DNA of 49,274 nt from Candidatus Helicobacter avicola (GTDB lineage Bacteria > Campylobacterota > Campylobacteria > Campylobacterales > Helicobacteraceae), in the NCBI GenBank assembly GCA_019112865.1, contig DXIN01000029.1, positions 1-49,274 of the forward strand, given 5' to 3'. Below are positions 16,233 through 34,129 of this stretch, one piece after another; positions within the stretch are counted from its first letter, which is position 1; each line of letters begins with the position of its first letter. Both the position numbers and the translations under genes were made by a program. Below the pieces are notes generated by a model. The model was given only the letters and a program-made list of their open reading frames with translations, was not told where the DNA came from and searched no databases.

Positions 16233-17249
16233 CTACCTAAGCATAGCTTGAATTTTGATTAAATTTGTAAGAGAGTTTTTGCTCTTGCCATTTTTGGCGT
16301 CCATATCCCAGCGATTTAGCAAATCAAAAATCTCAATATAGTCGGTTTGCTTGAAATACAGGCAATATTTGCGTTGTCGCTCAAGGATATGTTTGGGTGG
16401 GGTAAAGCCCAAAATATCGCTAGCATTGAGATTGCCTCTTGTCTTGATATAGCTAAAAAATAAAAAAAGTTGATAAAAAAACCGCTGCAATTCCCGCACG
16501 AGCATTACTTCACTTGTGCCTTCTTCATAGATGCTTTGGAGAATCTTGACAAATGGCTTTTTGTCCATCACTGCACAAAAAAGCTCCTCTATGCTAAAAC
16601 TTGCTATCCCCTCGCACAAAAACCGCACCTCCTCACTGCTTACCGCTCGCACGCCATTTTGTGAATCTAGCCCAATGCAAAATTTCTCAAGCTCCTTGTG
16701 GGCGATTGCGAGGTTGTTGTTTTGGAGTTCTAAAATATAGCGCAAATCTTGCGTGTGAATCTCTATCCCTAGCTCTTTTGTGCGCGTGCGCAAAAACTCC
16801 AAGTTCTCCTGCACACTCGGCTCAAAAAACCGCACCTCTGCCACCGGGATAGCACTACTCCTAAAGGCATTTGCAAATGCACGCGCATCTTGCATATACT
16901 CCGCCTCGCTCTTAGCACTAGAGATATGAAACTCGATGATAAGGGCGTTGCTTGGGTTAGATTCTATGGCTTTTAGGAGCGCTTCACAGGATTTTTTATC
17001 GAGCTTTTTATCAAGCTTTAGGAGGATAAAGGTATCGCCGCCAAAGAGCGAGTTTTGGCTAAGGAGTGAGTGGATACTCTCTACATCACACTCATCATAA
17101 AAAAACCGCTGCACTTCCTGCCCGCCAGAGAGCAATGCGGCGATTTTGCTCCCATAATGGCTGATGAGAAATTCATCTGCCCCATAGAGTAGGTAAGCAC
17201 GAGGAGGATTGGGTTTATTAAGGAGAGAATCTAAGTCTTTTTTATACAT
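16233..17249 (-). CDS. holA: DNA polymerase III delta subunit (HolA-like)
   Basis: HolA opens and loads the beta sliding clamp. The 338-residue product has the family's N-terminal AAA-like fold without a functional nucleotide site (RAYLLYGADEFLISHY, then FFYDECDVESIHSLLSQNSLFGGDTFILLKL) and helical middle and C-terminal domains (ILELQNNNLAIAHKELEKF; VRELQRFFYQLFLFFSYIK). The start at 17249 gives the expected MYKKDLDSLL beginning. It follows the H. pylori order rnr-holA-rpsF-ssb-rpsR, except that an unrelated insert on the other strand now separates it from rnr, so it may depend on a promoter within 17250-17350. Confidence 0.88.
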   Translation of the reverse strand: MYKKDLDSLLNKPNPPRAYLLYGADEFLISHYGSKIAALLSGGQEVQRFFYDECDVESIHSLLSQNSLFGGDTFILLKLDKKLDKKSCEALLKAIESNPSNALIIEFHISSAKSEAEYMQDARAFANAFRSSAIPVAEVRFFEPSVQENLEFLRTRTKELGIEIHTQDLRYILELQNNNLAIAHKELEKFCIGLDSQNGVRAVSSEEVRFLCEGIASFSIEELFCAVMDKKPFVKILQSIYEEGTSEVMLVRELQRFFYQLFLFFSYIKTRGNLNASDILGFTPPKHILERQRKYCLYFKQTDYIEIFDLLNRWDMDAKNGKSKNSLTNLIKIQAMLR

Positions 17250-17264
17250 TGCTAGATAAATTCC

Positions 17265-17317
17265 TTTACATTTATTGTAAAAAATATATTGACAAAATTT
17301 GTAAAAATTTTTATAAT
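17265..17317 (+). promoter_or_regulatory. Strong promoter with inverted repeats upstream of the HTH gene
   Basis: TTGACA (17289-17294) and TATAAT (17312-17317) are separated by 17 bases: both hexamers and the spacing match the sigma-70 consensus exactly, which is rare in this phylum. Overlapping it are two inverted repeats: TTTACA-N5-TGTAAA (17265-17281) upstream, and ACAAA-A-TTTGT (17292-17302) over the -35 and spacer. TTGTAAAA occurs in both. They are good candidate operators for the HTH protein encoded just downstream. The same gap must also serve holA on the other strand. Confidence 0.6.
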
Positions 17318-17350
17318 GGCACAAACATTCTAGCATTTGAGGATATAAAA

Positions 17351-17845
17351 ATGAATAAAACGCACAAAAAACTTTTGCGGGAAAAAATGAAAGGCTTAGG
17401 ACTGCATTTGGTAGATATTGCGGAGTTTTTGGATATTTCAAGACCCACAGCTTATAAGTTTATAGAATTATATGAATTGGGATATAAGGATAAGTTGGAT
17501 TCACATATTTTGGGACTTTTTGACTTTATCGACCAGACTCCAAATCTTACCAAACCAAAGGTGCTAGGCTATATCGTGGAACATATCACAAAGCTTGGCG
17601 AGCTAAAGACCAAAGAACAAACCATAAAAAATCTCATAGGCAAAAACAATCCCACAAAGGTGGAGTTTATCGGCAAAATCTGTAAAGAAAGCATTTTTGA
17701 ACCAATCTTAGAATATTTGCTTGAGTGTGAAAAGATTTTGCACACAAAGAGTGGCACTCGTAGGAAAAATCTAAATCAAGATGAGCTCAAAAAGATTGAG
17801 GCACTCAAAGTATTGTATGAAAACTTAGGGTTAAAACTTATCTAA
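17351..17845 (+). CDS. Helix-turn-helix protein of the accessory insert
   Basis: The 164-residue protein has an N-terminal helix-turn-helix (about residues 16-40: LHLVDIAEFLDISRPTAYKFIE), resembling MerR/XRE-type recognition helices, followed by about 120 mostly helical, Lys/Glu-rich residues I cannot assign to a family. It is probably a DNA-binding regulator of the module. GAGG lies eight bases before the ATG at 17351; the reading frame is open upstream, but those codons overlap the promoter. Next come a 12-codon ORF and the AAA/TOPRIM gene, 46 bases away on the same strand. Relatives of the flanking operon have no gene here, so it is accessory. Confidence 0.7.
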   Translation: MNKTHKKLLREKMKGLGLHLVDIAEFLDISRPTAYKFIELYELGYKDKLDSHILGLFDFIDQTPNLTKPKVLGYIVEHITKLGELKTKEQTIKNLIGKNNPTKVEFIGKICKESIFEPILEYLLECEKILHTKSGTRRKNLNQDELKKIEALKVLYENLGLKLI

Positions 17846-17856
17846 AAGGAGAAAAT

Positions 17857-17895
17857 ATGCAAAACACACAAAACACCACAAAGGAGCAACAATGA
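17857..17895 (+). CDS. Twelve-codon ORF coupled to the AAA/TOPRIM gene
   Basis: ATG at 17857 opens a frame of 12 codons (MQNTQNTTKEQQ) whose TGA overlaps the ATG of the next gene (ATGA at 17892-17895). It has its own strong AAGGAG five bases before its ATG. Inside it lies the AAGGAG that serves the downstream gene. It could be a translational coupling or leader peptide, or a remnant of a gene. Peptide function is unknown and its expression is inferred only from the ribosome binding site. Confidence 0.4.
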   Translation: MQNTQNTTKEQQ

Positions 17896-20372
17896 ACATC
17901 ACAAAAGTAACTTTTAAGGATTTTAGAAATTTAGGCTGTGCCAACTTGGCACCAGACAATGCAAATGGCTTGAGCAACGATCTCAAGCTAAATGGGGGGG
18001 GGTTAATAGTCCTCTTAGGTGCCAATAATGAAGGCAAAAGTAATGTGTTAGAGGGCTTAAGGAAACTTGGGAGATTCTATGAGAATAATGCCCTTGATAC
18101 AGAAGATAAGCCAAATTTTGTCAGGTATGAGAGTGGCTTACCAGAGATAGTCGCACACTTGGAGGATACGCTAGAGCAAGAGCATGATGACTTCGCGGAT
18201 AAAACCTATAACATCACTTTTACAAAGGGAGTGATTGAGAAAGGATTGGAAAATCATTCAGAGATTAGAGATGAGGCGACATATAAGGAGTTTTTGCAAA
18301 AACTTTTGGAGAGTGGTAAGTCAATAGTCTATGGAAAAGACCAAGAAGGCACACGAGATGAGATAAAGATTTTTATCCCAGAGCATAATTTTACATTGTG
18401 TTGTAGTGCGACAAATGGTGGGAAGTCTTTGCAATGCTTTTCTATCCTAGAAAAGAAAAGCTGTGAATCTATCAAGGATTTTGACAAAGCTATGGCATTG
18501 CGATGTGGGTTTGTAATCAATGGCTCTAAGGGTGCAGATGATGCGAGTGAGCTACGCGAATATCTCAAAAACCCAAAGCAACCAAACATACAAAAACATA
18601 CACTCACAATCTCTTTGGAAAAGGGCATAATACCTAGTGAGAATCTATCGCCAATCATTGAAAGAACTTCTTTTAACGAGCAGGTCACACGCATCGTAGA
18701 GTGGGGTAAAAACCTTGATTTTACCATGGCAAAACTAGAAAATAATGCTTGGAGCCGGATTGGGTGGGTTGGAGATGAGCTTGCAATACAATACAAAAGA
18801 GATATTGATTCCCTAGAATCAAAACTTTCTAGTAGTGATTATAAAACAATGCTAGATGTTTATCAGAGATTTTATACATTTTTTTATGGCGAGTCGTTTC
18901 AAGAATTGTTAGGAAAGGTAAAAAGATACTATTCTCAAGAACTTCAAAAAATGAATGTAGATATAGATTTGCAGTTACCCTCATCAAAAGAGCTAGAAAG
19001 CTACATTGAGTTTAATGAGAATTTTCCTAGAATTTACTACTATAAACAGCGTGAGCTAAAAGATAGTGATTTGGAAGTCAAGCCTGATAACTTTGAAAAT
19101 TCTGCATTTTTCAAGGCACTTTTTGCGATATTGGGTCCGGGATATAGCGAGAAAGTGAAGAAGGCATATGAACACCAAAGTAGCCAAGATTCGTATTTAG
19201 ACCCAACCGAAGGACTCATTAATGAACATATCAAAGAAAAAATCAACACGCGCTTTAATGAAATGTATTGCTTAGACCAAGATACCTATAGTTTTAAAAT
19301 AAAGCTTTCAGAAACGAAAATTTCTTTTATAATGTCCAAAAATACCGAGCCCCTTGAACTCTCCAAGCAAAGCGTGGGGTTTAGGAAATTTTTTGCTTTG
19401 TTTTTTAACTTTCTCTATCAGACTAAACACAACAAAGGCGACATTGTGCTTATCGATGAAGCCGAATCCCATCTAAGCGTGCCAGCTCAAAAGGACTTTA
19501 GGAAGTTTTTAAAAGATTTTGGACAAAATCAAGGCATTACCTTTATCATCGCCACGCATTCGCCCTATATGCTTGATAGTGATTATCTTGATGAGATTAG
19601 GATTGTGAAAAATCTTAGCACGCAAGATACAGATTCTAAAGACACAGATTCTCAAAGCCATAAAGGTGCAGCGATTATTAATGATTTTTCGGTGATTTCT
19701 GAAGAGGGTGCTGATACATTGCGTGAGATTCGCAAGGCTTTAGGCACAAACTTCGCACCAGAGGATAGGATAATCTTTGTAGAGGGCATTTCAGACTATA
19801 ATTACCTCACAGCCTTTAAAAATCTCTATGAGCAGGAAAAAGACACAAAGATAAATCTAGCCTTTTTGCCAATTGCTGGAGTGGGCAAGGGCGAGAATGG
19901 CGAGGGCTTTAGCGAAACCCAAAGACAAAAATGCAAGGCTATAATAGCGTTTGCCAAAACCTGCAAGATAGCCAATCCCACACTTTTGGTGGATAATGAC
20001 AAAGCAGGTCAAACCATGAAAGAAGGGGCAGAAAAGGAGTTTAAAAAAGAACTATCTGTTTTGAATCTCGCCGATTATGTCTGTGGAGCAAAAGAGAAAA
20101 AGGACGGAAGCAAGGATATAAAAGATATAGAATCTCTGTTTTCTAACGAGGATCGAGCAATGTTTGGCATATTCACAAGCGGTGAGATCGAAAAACACAA
20201 GGAGCAAAATACTTATCAAAGGGACACAATGAGCAAAAATATCGTAAGTCGCCGGATTAAATACAAGCTTATCAAAGAAGAGAATAAAGTAAGCGAGGCA
20301 ACCAAAGGAAACTTTTTCACGCTTTTAGAATCTCTGAAAAAATACGAGGATTCCGATAATCCTAACTCATAG
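17892..20372 (+). CDS. OLD-family AAA ATPase with TOPRIM nuclease domain, phase-variable
   Basis: The 826-residue product has an ABC/SMC-like ATPase head: Walker A GANNEGKS (43-50), a signature-like SVG at 494-496, Walker B IDEAE (D522, E523) and an H-loop THS (H556). A TOPRIM domain follows, with its acidic residue in FVEG (E631) and the DxD pair in LVDNDKAG (D701, D703). This order is that of OLD (overcoming lysogenization defect) nucleases, many of which act in phage defence. It is larger than classical OLD or GajA (about 550-600 residues as I recall); the extra sequence lies between Walker A and the signature. Codons 35-37 are GGG in a G9 run just before Walker A. No UvrD-like helicase is adjacent, so it is not Gabija. 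AAGGAG precedes the ATG; the last 11 bases overlap the convergent rnr end. Confidence 0.88.
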   Translation: MNITKVTFKDFRNLGCANLAPDNANGLSNDLKLNGGGLIVLLGANNEGKSNVLEGLRKLGRFYENNALDTEDKPNFVRYESGLPEIVAHLEDTLEQEHDDFADKTYNITFTKGVIEKGLENHSEIRDEATYKEFLQKLLESGKSIVYGKDQEGTRDEIKIFIPEHNFTLCCSATNGGKSLQCFSILEKKSCESIKDFDKAMALRCGFVINGSKGADDASELREYLKNPKQPNIQKHTLTISLEKGIIPSENLSPIIERTSFNEQVTRIVEWGKNLDFTMAKLENNAWSRIGWVGDELAIQYKRDIDSLESKLSSSDYKTMLDVYQRFYTFFYGESFQELLGKVKRYYSQELQKMNVDIDLQLPSSKELESYIEFNENFPRIYYYKQRELKDSDLEVKPDNFENSAFFKALFAILGPGYSEKVKKAYEHQSSQDSYLDPTEGLINEHIKEKINTRFNEMYCLDQDTYSFKIKLSETKISFIMSKNTEPLELSKQSVGFRKFFALFFNFLYQTKHNKGDIVLIDEAESHLSVPAQKDFRKFLKDFGQNQGITFIIATHSPYMLDSDYLDEIRIVKNLSTQDTDSKDTDSQSHKGAAIINDFSVISEEGADTLREIRKALGTNFAPEDRIIFVEGISDYNYLTAFKNLYEQEKDTKINLAFLPIAGVGKGENGEGFSETQRQKCKAIIAFAKTCKIANPTLLVDNDKAGQTMKEGAEKEFKKELSVLNLADYVCGAKEKKDGSKDIKDIESLFSNEDRAMFGIFTSGEIEKHKEQNTYQRDTMSKNIVSRRIKYKLIKEENKVSEATKGNFFTLLESLKKYEDSDNPNS
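17994..18002 (+). repeat. G9 homopolymer, candidate phase-variation tract
   Basis: Nine consecutive G encode Gly35-Gly37 of the AAA/TOPRIM protein. With G9 the frame is open through 20372. With G8 the next codon is TAA. With G10 the frame reads nine codons and stops at the TAA in CCAATAA, about 25 bases downstream. It is the only G or C run of eight or more I found in the window, and poly-G tracts of this length are classic slippage switches in Campylobacter and Helicobacter. Confidence 0.8.
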
Positions 20373-22767
20373 CCTTACACCCCAACGCCACCCCATAAAT
20401 CTCACGCTTTATGAGGTCTGCGCCGGTGAGGCACACACGCAAAGTGGCAAACTTCTCTAGCGAATTTGTAGAATCTATAAAATCCATAGTCCCCAAATCC
20501 GCACAATCTACCAAAATGTATGTATGTGGGATTAAATCTAGCGCAAGGGTGCGCACAAACCCATCATCGTGGTGATAATCATCAAGCACTATTGCCTCAC
20601 ACACAAGAGGCTTTTTGCTCGGCGATTTTTGCCTAGCAAGGAGACTTAGCACATAGCGCACGCTTTTTAAATCATTAAACTCCCGCTCTAGGTGGCTTAT
20701 GCTCTTTTGCTTGAGATTGAGCTCTTGGGCGACACTCTCCATATTTGCACAGAGGTATTCTAACTCCTTAGAGTCGCGCAGGAGGGATTTTAGGATTCTA
20801 TGCACGCACAGGTCGCTATATCGGCGTATTGGCGAGGTAAAATGCGTATAGAGGCTAAAACCTAGCCCAAAATGCCCTGTAGGCGTGGCACTATAACATG
20901 CCTTGGCAAAAGAGCGAATGATAAGTGTGTCGATAATCTGCGCGAATTGTTCACCCCTCTCTCTCGCCCAGCTCTGAATCTCCCCTATCTGTGTGCGCAG
21001 ATCCCCACGCACAATCGGCGCGCCCAGCTCCTGCATATCGTATAAAAGCTGTGAGATCTTGCTCTCTTTGGGTGGTTGGTGGATTCTATAAAGTCCGATA
21101 GGTGCGTGTGTATGGAGCATTTGTGCCGCTGCGATATTGGCTAGGAGCATAGATTCTTCAATGATATGATGAGCGAGGGAGGACTGCTCCAGGCTTATGT
21201 GCGTTACTTTGCCTAGTGAATCTAAATGTATCTGCACATCGGGGCTGTGGAGATCGTAGCCGCTGCGCAGGCGATTAGCACGGAGTTTGCGCACCTGTGG
21301 GATATAGGATTTGAGCCATTGCAAGGATTGTGGCAGACTATCGCGATCTAGGAGAGAATCCAAGCTATCATAGTCTCTATGCTCGTGTGCCTTGATAATC
21401 CCCTCATAGAGCCTAGAATCTACCGCCTTGCCATCTTGTAGTGTGATCTCCCACACAAGCGCAAGACGCAAGCGATTTTTTTGTAATGAGCAAAGTCCGC
21501 TGGAGAGCTCAAAGGGCAGCATAGGCACGACACTATCGGGGAAATACACGCTAAAGCCCCGCTCCCGCGCTTCTTTGTCAAGTGCGCTATTTTTGCTCAC
21601 ATACTCACTCACATCAGCAATCGCTACATAGAGTTTTTGGGATTTGCAATCATAGTAAATCGCATCATCGTGGTCTTTAGCACCTTTGGGGTCGATGACA
21701 CAAAATCCCAAATGTGTGTAATCGCGTCTATGCGGATAATGTGCGCGCAATACGCGTGTGCCATAGCTTTGAGCAAGTAGTAGGCTCTGTGGTGTGAAAT
21801 CCTGCGCTATGGCGTATTGCTCAAGCACGATTTGTTTATCGATATGCGCGTCATCAAGCACGCCTAGCACCTTTTGAATCTCAAGTGAGCGCAAGTTGAT
21901 TGTGATGACACAATTTGGAGGGAGTGCGCGGAGGGATTTTTGTGAGGCTTTGGGGGTAAGTCTTTGTCCATTTTGTAAGCTAAAGGCGTATATTGTGCCT
22001 CTTTGCTGGAGCAGCACGCAGATAGCGAGATTTTCTCTCGTCTCTAGCACGCACACAAACCGCGCCACACTTTTGTAGCGCATCACACCCTTTCTCTTGC
22101 CTTGCTTGATAGATTCTATTTTGGCGAGGACGATATCGCCACTAAAGACATTGCGTGGGAGGTTTTTGATGATGAGGTCTTGGTGGTGGTTTGGGTGTAG
22201 GGGCGTGAGGAAGGATTTGCCTAGTGTGAGTTCTGTAATGCCGATAAGGAAGGTGGGCTTTAGCGCGACATATTGCTTGGATTGTGAATCTTGGCTTGTC
22301 TTTTTTGCGCTTTTACTTGATTTCTGCGTTCGGGTTTGGTCATTACCCTCAAGGTAACTCCCTGCACCCTCTCTTGAAAAACAAGTAAAATCATCAAAAA
22401 ATACTTCGCCACTTATCAGCTTTGTTGTGTGCAAATTTTCATTACTTGATTGTGTGGATTGTGAATCTTTCTTAGATTCTATTGCACTAGATTCTAAATT
22501 TTCAGTAGATTCTGAATTTACCTCTGAATCTTGTGCTCGGCTTGTCCCGGAAATTCTAGGATTGTGTGTAAGATTTGCTTGTTTTTGGAGCGAACCGAAC
22601 AAATCAAGCAAAGATTGCGTGCAAGCCGAATTTCCTTTATCGCTCAATACTGAATGCTTGTCTAACACCCCAAGTTTTTGCAACCTCTCAAATGCAGCCC
22701 TATGTGCCTTAGCAATACTCCCAACCGCACACCCTGCACTAATAGCGATGTAAAATTCAATCATCAA
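20362..22767 (-). CDS. rnr: Ribonuclease R family 3'-5' exoribonuclease
   Basis: RNase R degrades structured RNA processively from the 3' end. The 801-residue product has the RNB catalytic domain with the acidic cluster in IDPKGAKDHDDAIYY, then IADVSEYV, FPDSVVPMLPFELSSGLCSL and the end block FTSPIRRYSDLCVHR. An S1-like region follows. Between about residues 70 and 165 is a low-complexity Ser/Glu/Asp/Thr/Gln-rich stretch that contains a cluster of AGATTCT motifs and is unusual for the family. The start overlaps the metallophosphoesterase gene by 11 bases, and the end overlaps the inserted AAA/TOPRIM gene by 11 bases. In H. pylori and C. jejuni rnr lies beside holA; here 3.1 kb separates them. 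Confidence 0.93.
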   Translation of the reverse strand: MMIEFYIAISAGCAVGSIAKAHRAAFERLQKLGVLDKHSVLSDKGNSACTQSLLDLFGSLQKQANLTHNPRISGTSRAQDSEVNSESTENLESSAIESKKDSQSTQSSNENLHTTKLISGEVFFDDFTCFSREGAGSYLEGNDQTRTQKSSKSAKKTSQDSQSKQYVALKPTFLIGITELTLGKSFLTPLHPNHHQDLIIKNLPRNVFSGDIVLAKIESIKQGKRKGVMRYKSVARFVCVLETRENLAICVLLQQRGTIYAFSLQNGQRLTPKASQKSLRALPPNCVITINLRSLEIQKVLGVLDDAHIDKQIVLEQYAIAQDFTPQSLLLAQSYGTRVLRAHYPHRRDYTHLGFCVIDPKGAKDHDDAIYYDCKSQKLYVAIADVSEYVSKNSALDKEARERGFSVYFPDSVVPMLPFELSSGLCSLQKNRLRLALVWEITLQDGKAVDSRLYEGIIKAHEHRDYDSLDSLLDRDSLPQSLQWLKSYIPQVRKLRANRLRSGYDLHSPDVQIHLDSLGKVTHISLEQSSLAHHIIEESMLLANIAAAQMLHTHAPIGLYRIHQPPKESKISQLLYDMQELGAPIVRGDLRTQIGEIQSWARERGEQFAQIIDTLIIRSFAKACYSATPTGHFGLGFSLYTHFTSPIRRYSDLCVHRILKSLLRDSKELEYLCANMESVAQELNLKQKSISHLEREFNDLKSVRYVLSLLARQKSPSKKPLVCEAIVLDDYHHDDGFVRTLALDLIPHTYILVDCADLGTMDFIDSTNSLEKFATLRVCLTGADLIKREIYGVALGCKAMS
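22474..22513. repeat. Three AGATTCT heptamers clustered inside rnr
   Basis: AGATTCT occurs at 22474-22480, 22489-22495 and 22507-22513. This is the densest cluster of a heptamer found throughout the window (about 115 copies on both strands). On the minus (coding) strand it reads AGAATCT and helps encode the Glu-Ser/Asn-Leu pairs of the rnr low-complexity region. Confidence 0.85.
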
Positions 22768-34115: not shown

Positions 34116-34129
34116 TTTTTTTTTTTTTT
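34116..34129. repeat. T14 homopolymer upstream of a chemoreceptor gene
   Basis: Fourteen consecutive T lie between uvrB and the chemoreceptor gene, about 110 bases before its start codon and about 60 bases before the candidate sigma-54 element. Long poly-T tracts in Helicobacter promoters can vary in length and change expression (known for sabA in H. pylori). Confidence 0.75.

Follow-up and report, generated by a model that had tools for sequence, protein, structure and literature searches.

A run of nine guanines (G9) early in the gene for an OLD-like ATPase–Toprim protein is probably a slippage contingency tract that switches translation of this OLD-type effector, which belongs to an acquired cassette with a helix-turn-helix (HTH) partner. 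Judging from the sequences of the gene and its relatives, phase variation of the effector is very likely. The gene lies in the window, i.e., the whole stretch of 49,274 bases that was analyzed, which is contig 23 of a 1.76-Mb, 42-contig draft genome from a family that includes named Helicobacter species (Table 1).

Table 1. Features of the G9 tract locus in the window
Feature	Position	Strand	Basis
Two-gene cassette insert	17250..20361		Between holA (16233-17249, -) and rnr (20362-22767, -)
HTH partner gene, 164 aa, helix-turn-helix ISRPTAYK near N terminus	17351..17845	+	Weak Pfam HTH_29/HTH_23 matches
12-codon leader ORF MQNTQNTTKEQQ, own AGGAG	17857..17895	+	Read from sequence
OLD-like ATPase–Toprim gene, 826 aa, frame open at G9	17892..20372	+	Pfam, PADLOC, alignment, fold match
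G9 tract, codons 35-37 (GGG GGG GGG), proposed switch	17994..18002	+	Read from sequence
Walker A GANNEGKS, residues 43-50	18018..18041	+	G43, N45, N46, G48, K49, S50, N51 invariant in 14 homologues
Walker B IVLIDE, residues 518-523	19443..19460	+	V519, L520, D522, E523 invariant
Toprim motif 1 IFVEG (E631)	19773..19787	+	F629, V630, E631, G632 invariant
Toprim DxD LLVDND (D701, D703)	19983..20000	+	L698, L699, V700, D701, D703 invariant

An OLD-like protein encoded by an inserted two-gene cassette

By its motifs and predicted fold, the product of the gene is an OLD-like ATPase–Toprim protein. It matches AAA_21 and AAA_15 in Pfam, as well as the PADLOC profiles AriA, AbiLi, Old, and GajA, every match being partial; the AriA profile covers the ATPase part only. 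When 14 homologues were aligned, the ABC ATPase set (G43..K49-S50, the QSxG signature Q493-S494-G496, D522-E523, and the H-loop H556) and the C-terminal Toprim set (E631-G632 and D701-x-D703) were found to be invariant. The AlphaFold model has a mean pLDDT of 70, with a low-confidence insert at about residues 231-373, in which residues 244-373 are modeled poorly. Its best fold match in the PDB is 6p74, the Class 1 OLD of Thermus scotoductus, followed by PtuA- and GajA-type ATPases, although global TM-scores are low because of the domain arrangement and the uncertain insert. The protein is a putative nuclease, and cutting of phage or plasmid DNA by such an effector would follow from OLD biology.

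The genes on either side of the cassette, rnr and holA, are adjacent in all five genus-mates, with a gap of 14 bp in the two closest and neither an HTH nor an OLD gene in between, and none of these five genomes has an OLD homologue. Since holA and rnr adjoin without the cassette in genus-mates, the HTH–OLD pair is an insertion of ~3.1 kb. Plasmid records yielded distant ATPases only, and IMG/VR two distant relatives with no copy of the G9 tract, so that these searches do not point to carriage by plasmids or phages. The acquired two-gene cassette most likely defends against phages or foreign DNA of other kinds. The neighboring RNase R has a peculiarity of its own: residues ~36-159, encoded at 22287-22662 of the window (- strand), are absent from the two closest genus-mates, which align over 1-36 and then 159-801. 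Pieces of this extra segment recur in the genome at 73-100% identity and in scrambled order (C36:8-388 and C7:57875-58231, with traces on C4 and C32), and the segment therefore resembles a mosaic of repeats that entered rnr in frame.

The HTH protein is probably a regulator or partner of the effector. Its AlphaFold model is all-helical (pLDDT 81); a fold search with this model gave no significant match, and the protein has no PADLOC match. Of 95 homologue loci scanned, 47 have an HTH homologue directly 5' of the OLD gene; some genes are counted more than once in this set, and some loci are cut by contig ends. The pair occurs in Helicobacter, Campylobacter, Clostridia, Treponema, Fibrobacter, Moraxella, mollicutes, and a Thermoplasmata archaeon, while gastric and H. 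cetorum-type OLD homologues have no recognizable HTH partner. One genome of the Helicobacteraceae, G110, carries a pair of the clostridial type, which suggests interphylum transfer. In H. cinaedi, H. canis, H. bilis, and genome G088, the HTH gene itself ends with a stop that overlaps the OLD start. In the window, the place of this overlap, found in several Helicobacter, is occupied by the leader ORF, whose TGA overlaps the ATG of the OLD gene (ATGA), an arrangement in which translational coupling to the OLD gene is possible.

A change of one base in the G9 tract closes the frame

The tract encodes Gly35-37 of the 826-aa product, in the early coding region. Reading the frames shows that one G fewer (G8) brings a stop at codon 38, directly behind the Gly codons, and that one G more (G10) brings a stop at codon 46, nine codons further. 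Since Walker A starts 15 bases past the tract, it is missing in both OFF frames. The preliminary description, which had placed the G9 run at residues 35-37 ahead of Walker A and had G8 and G10 closing the frame, was therefore correct on both counts. It was also right that no other G or C run of at least 8 is present in the window, where all others reach 6 at most in 49,274 bases; the genome as a whole, however, has 90. Under a dinucleotide model, 0.24 runs of at least 8 and 0.05 of at least 9 are expected in the window, and by itself G9 is only mildly unusual there. Among A/T runs of at least 10, the window has only T14 at 34116-34129 and A13 at 2-14, at its edge.

Such a mildly unexpected run might simply encode a fixed glycine loop before the P-loop, with three GGG arising by codon choice and no switch. 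Gly36-Gly37-Leu38 is indeed invariant in the 14 aligned homologues, tract codons 36-37 encoding this Gly-Gly, and GGG makes up 24% of the Gly codons in window genes, so that three in a row have a chance of ~1.3% from codon choice alone. However, no other Gly-Gly among the window genes examined is written entirely in GGG. In relatives, which usually have two Gly, the pair is written in mixed codons (GGT GGA, GGC GGA, and GGG GGC), and the genome holds 89 runs of at least 9 when 1.75 are expected. We consider a fixed loop very unlikely.

The relatives also bear on the age of the run. The nearest homologues found are only ~40% identical, and close relatives were recovered by an alignment query, a single-sequence contig scan having given none. 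None of them has a tract at this site, so that a tract site conserved across homologues was rejected, and the idea that the Gly run might be kept as GGG, raised in the preliminary description, was not borne out. Since Gly codons are mixed in relatives, the protein does not require a G run, and the run arose in the window lineage, which apparently gained one extra glycine along with it. Interrupted codons in homologues had been named in the preliminary description as grounds against the switch, and they are what the relatives have. They do not refute a switch, because the same gene has tracts elsewhere in other species.

Long G runs form a separate population in the genome

A pattern search of the whole genome found 90 G runs of at least 8, against 8.6 expected under the dinucleotide model, and 89 of at least 9, against 1.75. 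This excess over chance is decisive, and it means that nearly all runs of at least 9 belong to a nonchance population. The numbers of runs by length are 802 (length 4), 128 (5), 11 (6), 1 (7), 1 (8), 28 (9), 38 (10), 15 (11), 6 (12), and 2 (13), where counts from 8 upward cover the whole genome and shorter ones the stretches read around tracts, ~280 kb. The spectrum is bimodal, with a steep fall from 4 to 7, a gap at 7-8, and a second peak at 9-10. The G9 tract thus belongs to a separate upper mode rather than to the tail of short runs.

According to Pfam matches of 77 ORFs, tract genes mostly encode glycosyltransferases, cytidylyltransferases, methyltransferases, sulfatases, and other surface-glycan enzymes, which are the classic phase-variable kinds. 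The OLD gene is the sole AAA/OLD-type ATPase among the Pfam matches listed, and when PADLOC was run on 38 of the 77 tract proteins, it alone matched a defence profile. By an automatic, uncurated call, 44 of the 90 tracts are in frame with an upstream ATG and ~26 are out of frame. Two further observations concern individual loci. On contig C39, a gene for a C5 cytosine DNA methylase (L172:1348-2418) has a G9 tract ~54 codons into its open frame and is a candidate for a further DNA-acting phase-variable gene. A 20-kb region of contig C10 (L187, 4500-24499), which looks like a glycan cluster, has thirteen G9-G12 tracts, nearly one per gene. Many of these sit in the final few codons, like the C-terminal switching at tracts described for H. 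canadensis (PMC2823697).

Five contigs of the draft (C24, C26, C37, C40, and C41) end within ~100 bases of a poly-G tract, e.g., at C26:62816 of 62827 and C41:9672 of 9735, and C26 and C37 have a tract at the identical position (104-112). Since contigs end near tracts, assembly breaks and repeats are located at switches. An assembly or sequencing error at the homopolymer, or a true state that is mixed, might therefore be suspected in a genome of 42 contigs. Yet G9 is exactly the length that keeps the conserved 826-aa frame open, and a miscount by one would leave the run itself standing, which makes this explanation highly improbable.

Tracts recur at different positions in OLD-like genes of the Helicobacteraceae

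We found a G/C tract of at least 8 inside the gene in 12 of 40 Helicobacteraceae homologues, whereas the tract density of the individual genomes predicts 3.6 under a uniform-density null (P = 6.6e-5). Compared with their own flanking DNA, the genes also have an excess of tracts (P = 0.02). Both P values are optimistic, because neither test allows for relatedness among the genes or for uneven tract density. A contig break interrupts a 13th tract gene, in genome G051, which has G16. The tracts found upstream of L096, L100, and L101 are extragenic and were left out of the count, while L071, whose G12 was rejected as a clean OFF allele since its N-terminal frame closes before the tract, was kept among the 12 tract-bearing genes. 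No in-gene tract was seen in homologues from Clostridia, spirochaetes, and archaea.

Tracts in homologues are 11-16 G or C long and occupy at least four positions beyond the window site, giving five clean positions in all. The first position, before Walker A, is that of the window gene (G9, ON by its frame). The second, ~40-60 residues past Walker A, is shared by H. rappini (G13, ON), H. bilis (G14, OFF), H. saguini (G11, OFF), G052 (G12, OFF), and G051 (G16, OFF), and H. didelphidarum is a further member with G13 and G16. Near residue 250, the third has C11 in H. canis and C12 in G058, both OFF. A proline run in an N-terminal extension harbors the fourth, with G025 (C14) and G010 (C11) in the ON frame, and G011 (C12) and H. 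cetorum (G012, C13) in the OFF frame. The fifth, near residue 316, is found in Campylobacter troglodytis (C13, OFF). In a tree of the homologues, tracts of differing position fall in separate clades.

The preliminary description had proposed an ON/OFF switch at G9. That proposal is well supported by evidence beyond the letters of the window, namely the genome's tract population and the ON and OFF lengths in homologues, while the expectation of a tract at the same site in homologues failed. The pairing of the gene with a conserved HTH gene in a cassette between rnr and holA had been overlooked there.

The OFF alleles tested remain intact

Judged by their sequences, the OFF copies that were tested are intact, with dN/dS of 0.33-0.51 past the tract. 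Between H. bilis G14 (OFF) and H. rappini G13 (ON), 633 stop-free codons past the tract are 84% identical with a dN/dS of 0.33, compared to 0.15 before the tract. Between H. canis (OFF) and the tract-free H. cinaedi, the values are 0.27 before the tract and 0.51 after it, and the C11 of H. canis aligns to unrelated mixed sequence in H. cinaedi. At one site, three near-identical genes have C14, C7, and C6. Intact OFF alleles together with varying length are predicted by reversible switching and not by decay.

Decay does occur in the family. Tract-free homologues that are decayed include a second copy in H. rappini and genes of G029, G023, G032, G056, and G030, and such tract-free pseudogenes would be expected of a gene that often carries a cost or can be lost. 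Seven loci without a long tract (L075, L090, L091, L092, L095, L097, and L098) are split by ordinary stops or indels, with long forms from H. pylori-type genomes among them; inside the long homologues of the H. pylori clade, no other repeat switch was found. In Helicobacter, the OLD family often seems to be either switchable or broken.

These decayed copies, and the 90 tracts of the genome, leave room for a neutral account in which a dispensable, recently acquired gene drifted into a tract in a run-prone genome and no switching was selected. However, the OFF copies are open on both sides of the tract with dN/dS of 0.15-0.51, which needs repeated return to ON, the tract lengths peak at 9-10 instead of falling off geometrically, and at least five sites of one family have acquired tracts, above the genomes' own density. 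We therefore regard a neutral by-product as unlikely.

At homopolymers, RNA polymerase can slip and ribosomes can shift frame. Slippage during transcription or translation could give each cell a low dose of full-length effector or mixed products, with no inherited switching, and out-of-frame tracts with intact downstream frames would also be expected from it. Against this stand the C14/C7/C6 series and the G13/G14 pair, which show that change occurs at the DNA level between close relatives, and Helicobacter poly-G tracts that vary in DNA reads (PMC2823697). An account confined to RNA or the ribosome seems improbable to us. In H. canadensis, G9 tracts range over G8-10 and G7-11 within the sequenced population (PMC2823697). 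With nine Gs, the window tract is among the shortest that switch and could be slow or fixed.

Comparison with known systems

Like poly-G/C phase variation in Helicobacter and Campylobacter, the OLD-family tracts combine a G run of 8-16 early in the frame, closure of that frame by a change of one base, and a tract-rich genome. Phase variation is known from genes for surface glycans, flagella, outer-membrane proteins, and restriction-modification, and, in contrast to the window, no OLD nuclease is among those named (PMC2823697, PMC6321876). Our search of the open-access literature found no report of a phase-variable OLD or defence ATPase in Helicobacter, which is weak evidence of novelty. Phase-variable restriction-modification includes the type IIG cj0031 in Campylobacter and the type III modH in H. 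pylori. Like the window, such systems and phasevarions have DNA-acting genes under tract control, with potential effects on foreign DNA; they differ in that a methyltransferase marks DNA, whereas the window cassette is without one.

The published OLD classes are a single gene, a gene with a UvrD-like helicase, a gene with a retron, and PARIS, none of them with an HTH partner (PMC10568477). The window protein resembles Class 1 (P2 Old and the T. scotoductus OLD, 6p74) in its N-terminal ABC ATPase and its C-terminal Toprim E and DxD. Class 1 members, however, are single genes (PMC10568477), whereas the window gene has a conserved upstream HTH partner, and the window protein is ~830 aa with a long low-confidence insert compared to 528 for Class 1. 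With Gabija GajA-GajB (Class 2), it shares the ATPase–Toprim architecture as well as Gabija-like profile and fold matches, but Gabija has a UvrD/Rep helicase, while the window gene is followed by RNase R on the opposite strand. The neighbors in the window are the HTH gene, holA, and rnr, with no adjacent reverse transcriptase or ncRNA as in the retron class (Class 3). In Class 4 (PARIS AriA-AriB), which also includes AriAB fusions, AriB is a separate Toprim nuclease; ATPase and Toprim are fused in the window protein. PARIS and AbiL, as examples of conserved pairs akin to toxin–antitoxin defence operons, resemble the window cassette in having two genes, the same broad ATPase clan, and AriA and AbiLi profile matches, but the partner here is a 160-aa HTH protein. 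The HTH–OLD pair would be a type outside the published OLD classes.

Proposed switch and its meaning

We propose that slipped-strand mispairing at G9 during replication is the most likely mechanism. Nine Gs would yield the full ATPase–Toprim protein (ON). Loss or gain of one G would bring a stop at codon 38 or 46, respectively, 15-38 bases past the tract (OFF), and leave cells with a 37- or 45-residue stub without Walker A, until a later slip restores the open frame. Since the HTH gene lies 5' of the tract and is in frame in both states, the effector alone would be switched. In a population mixed for ON and OFF cells, the cost of the effector would be balanced against the danger of infection as a form of bet-hedging. 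That the tract slips in the window species, that the cassette defends, and that the population benefits is what we infer.

Discussions of phase variation usually center on surface structures and on restriction-modification, in which the methylase provides a link to epigenetics. The sequences of the homologues, in which tracts recur at differing sites, suggest that switching off a probable defence gene has been repeatedly favored. Evenly balanced, in our judgment, is the broader proposition that the HTH–OLD module lies outside the four OLD classes, occurs in several phyla, and is an antiphage system whose effector, in Helicobacteraceae and at least one Campylobacter species, gained switches independently at no fewer than five positions, as convergent bet-hedging without a methylase. 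The repeated origin of switches in one family of nuclease-type effectors suggests that immunity is paid for in only part of the population. Genes that gain tracts repeatedly would be those worth switching off, which may offer a way to recognize costly immune genes in phase-variable genomes.
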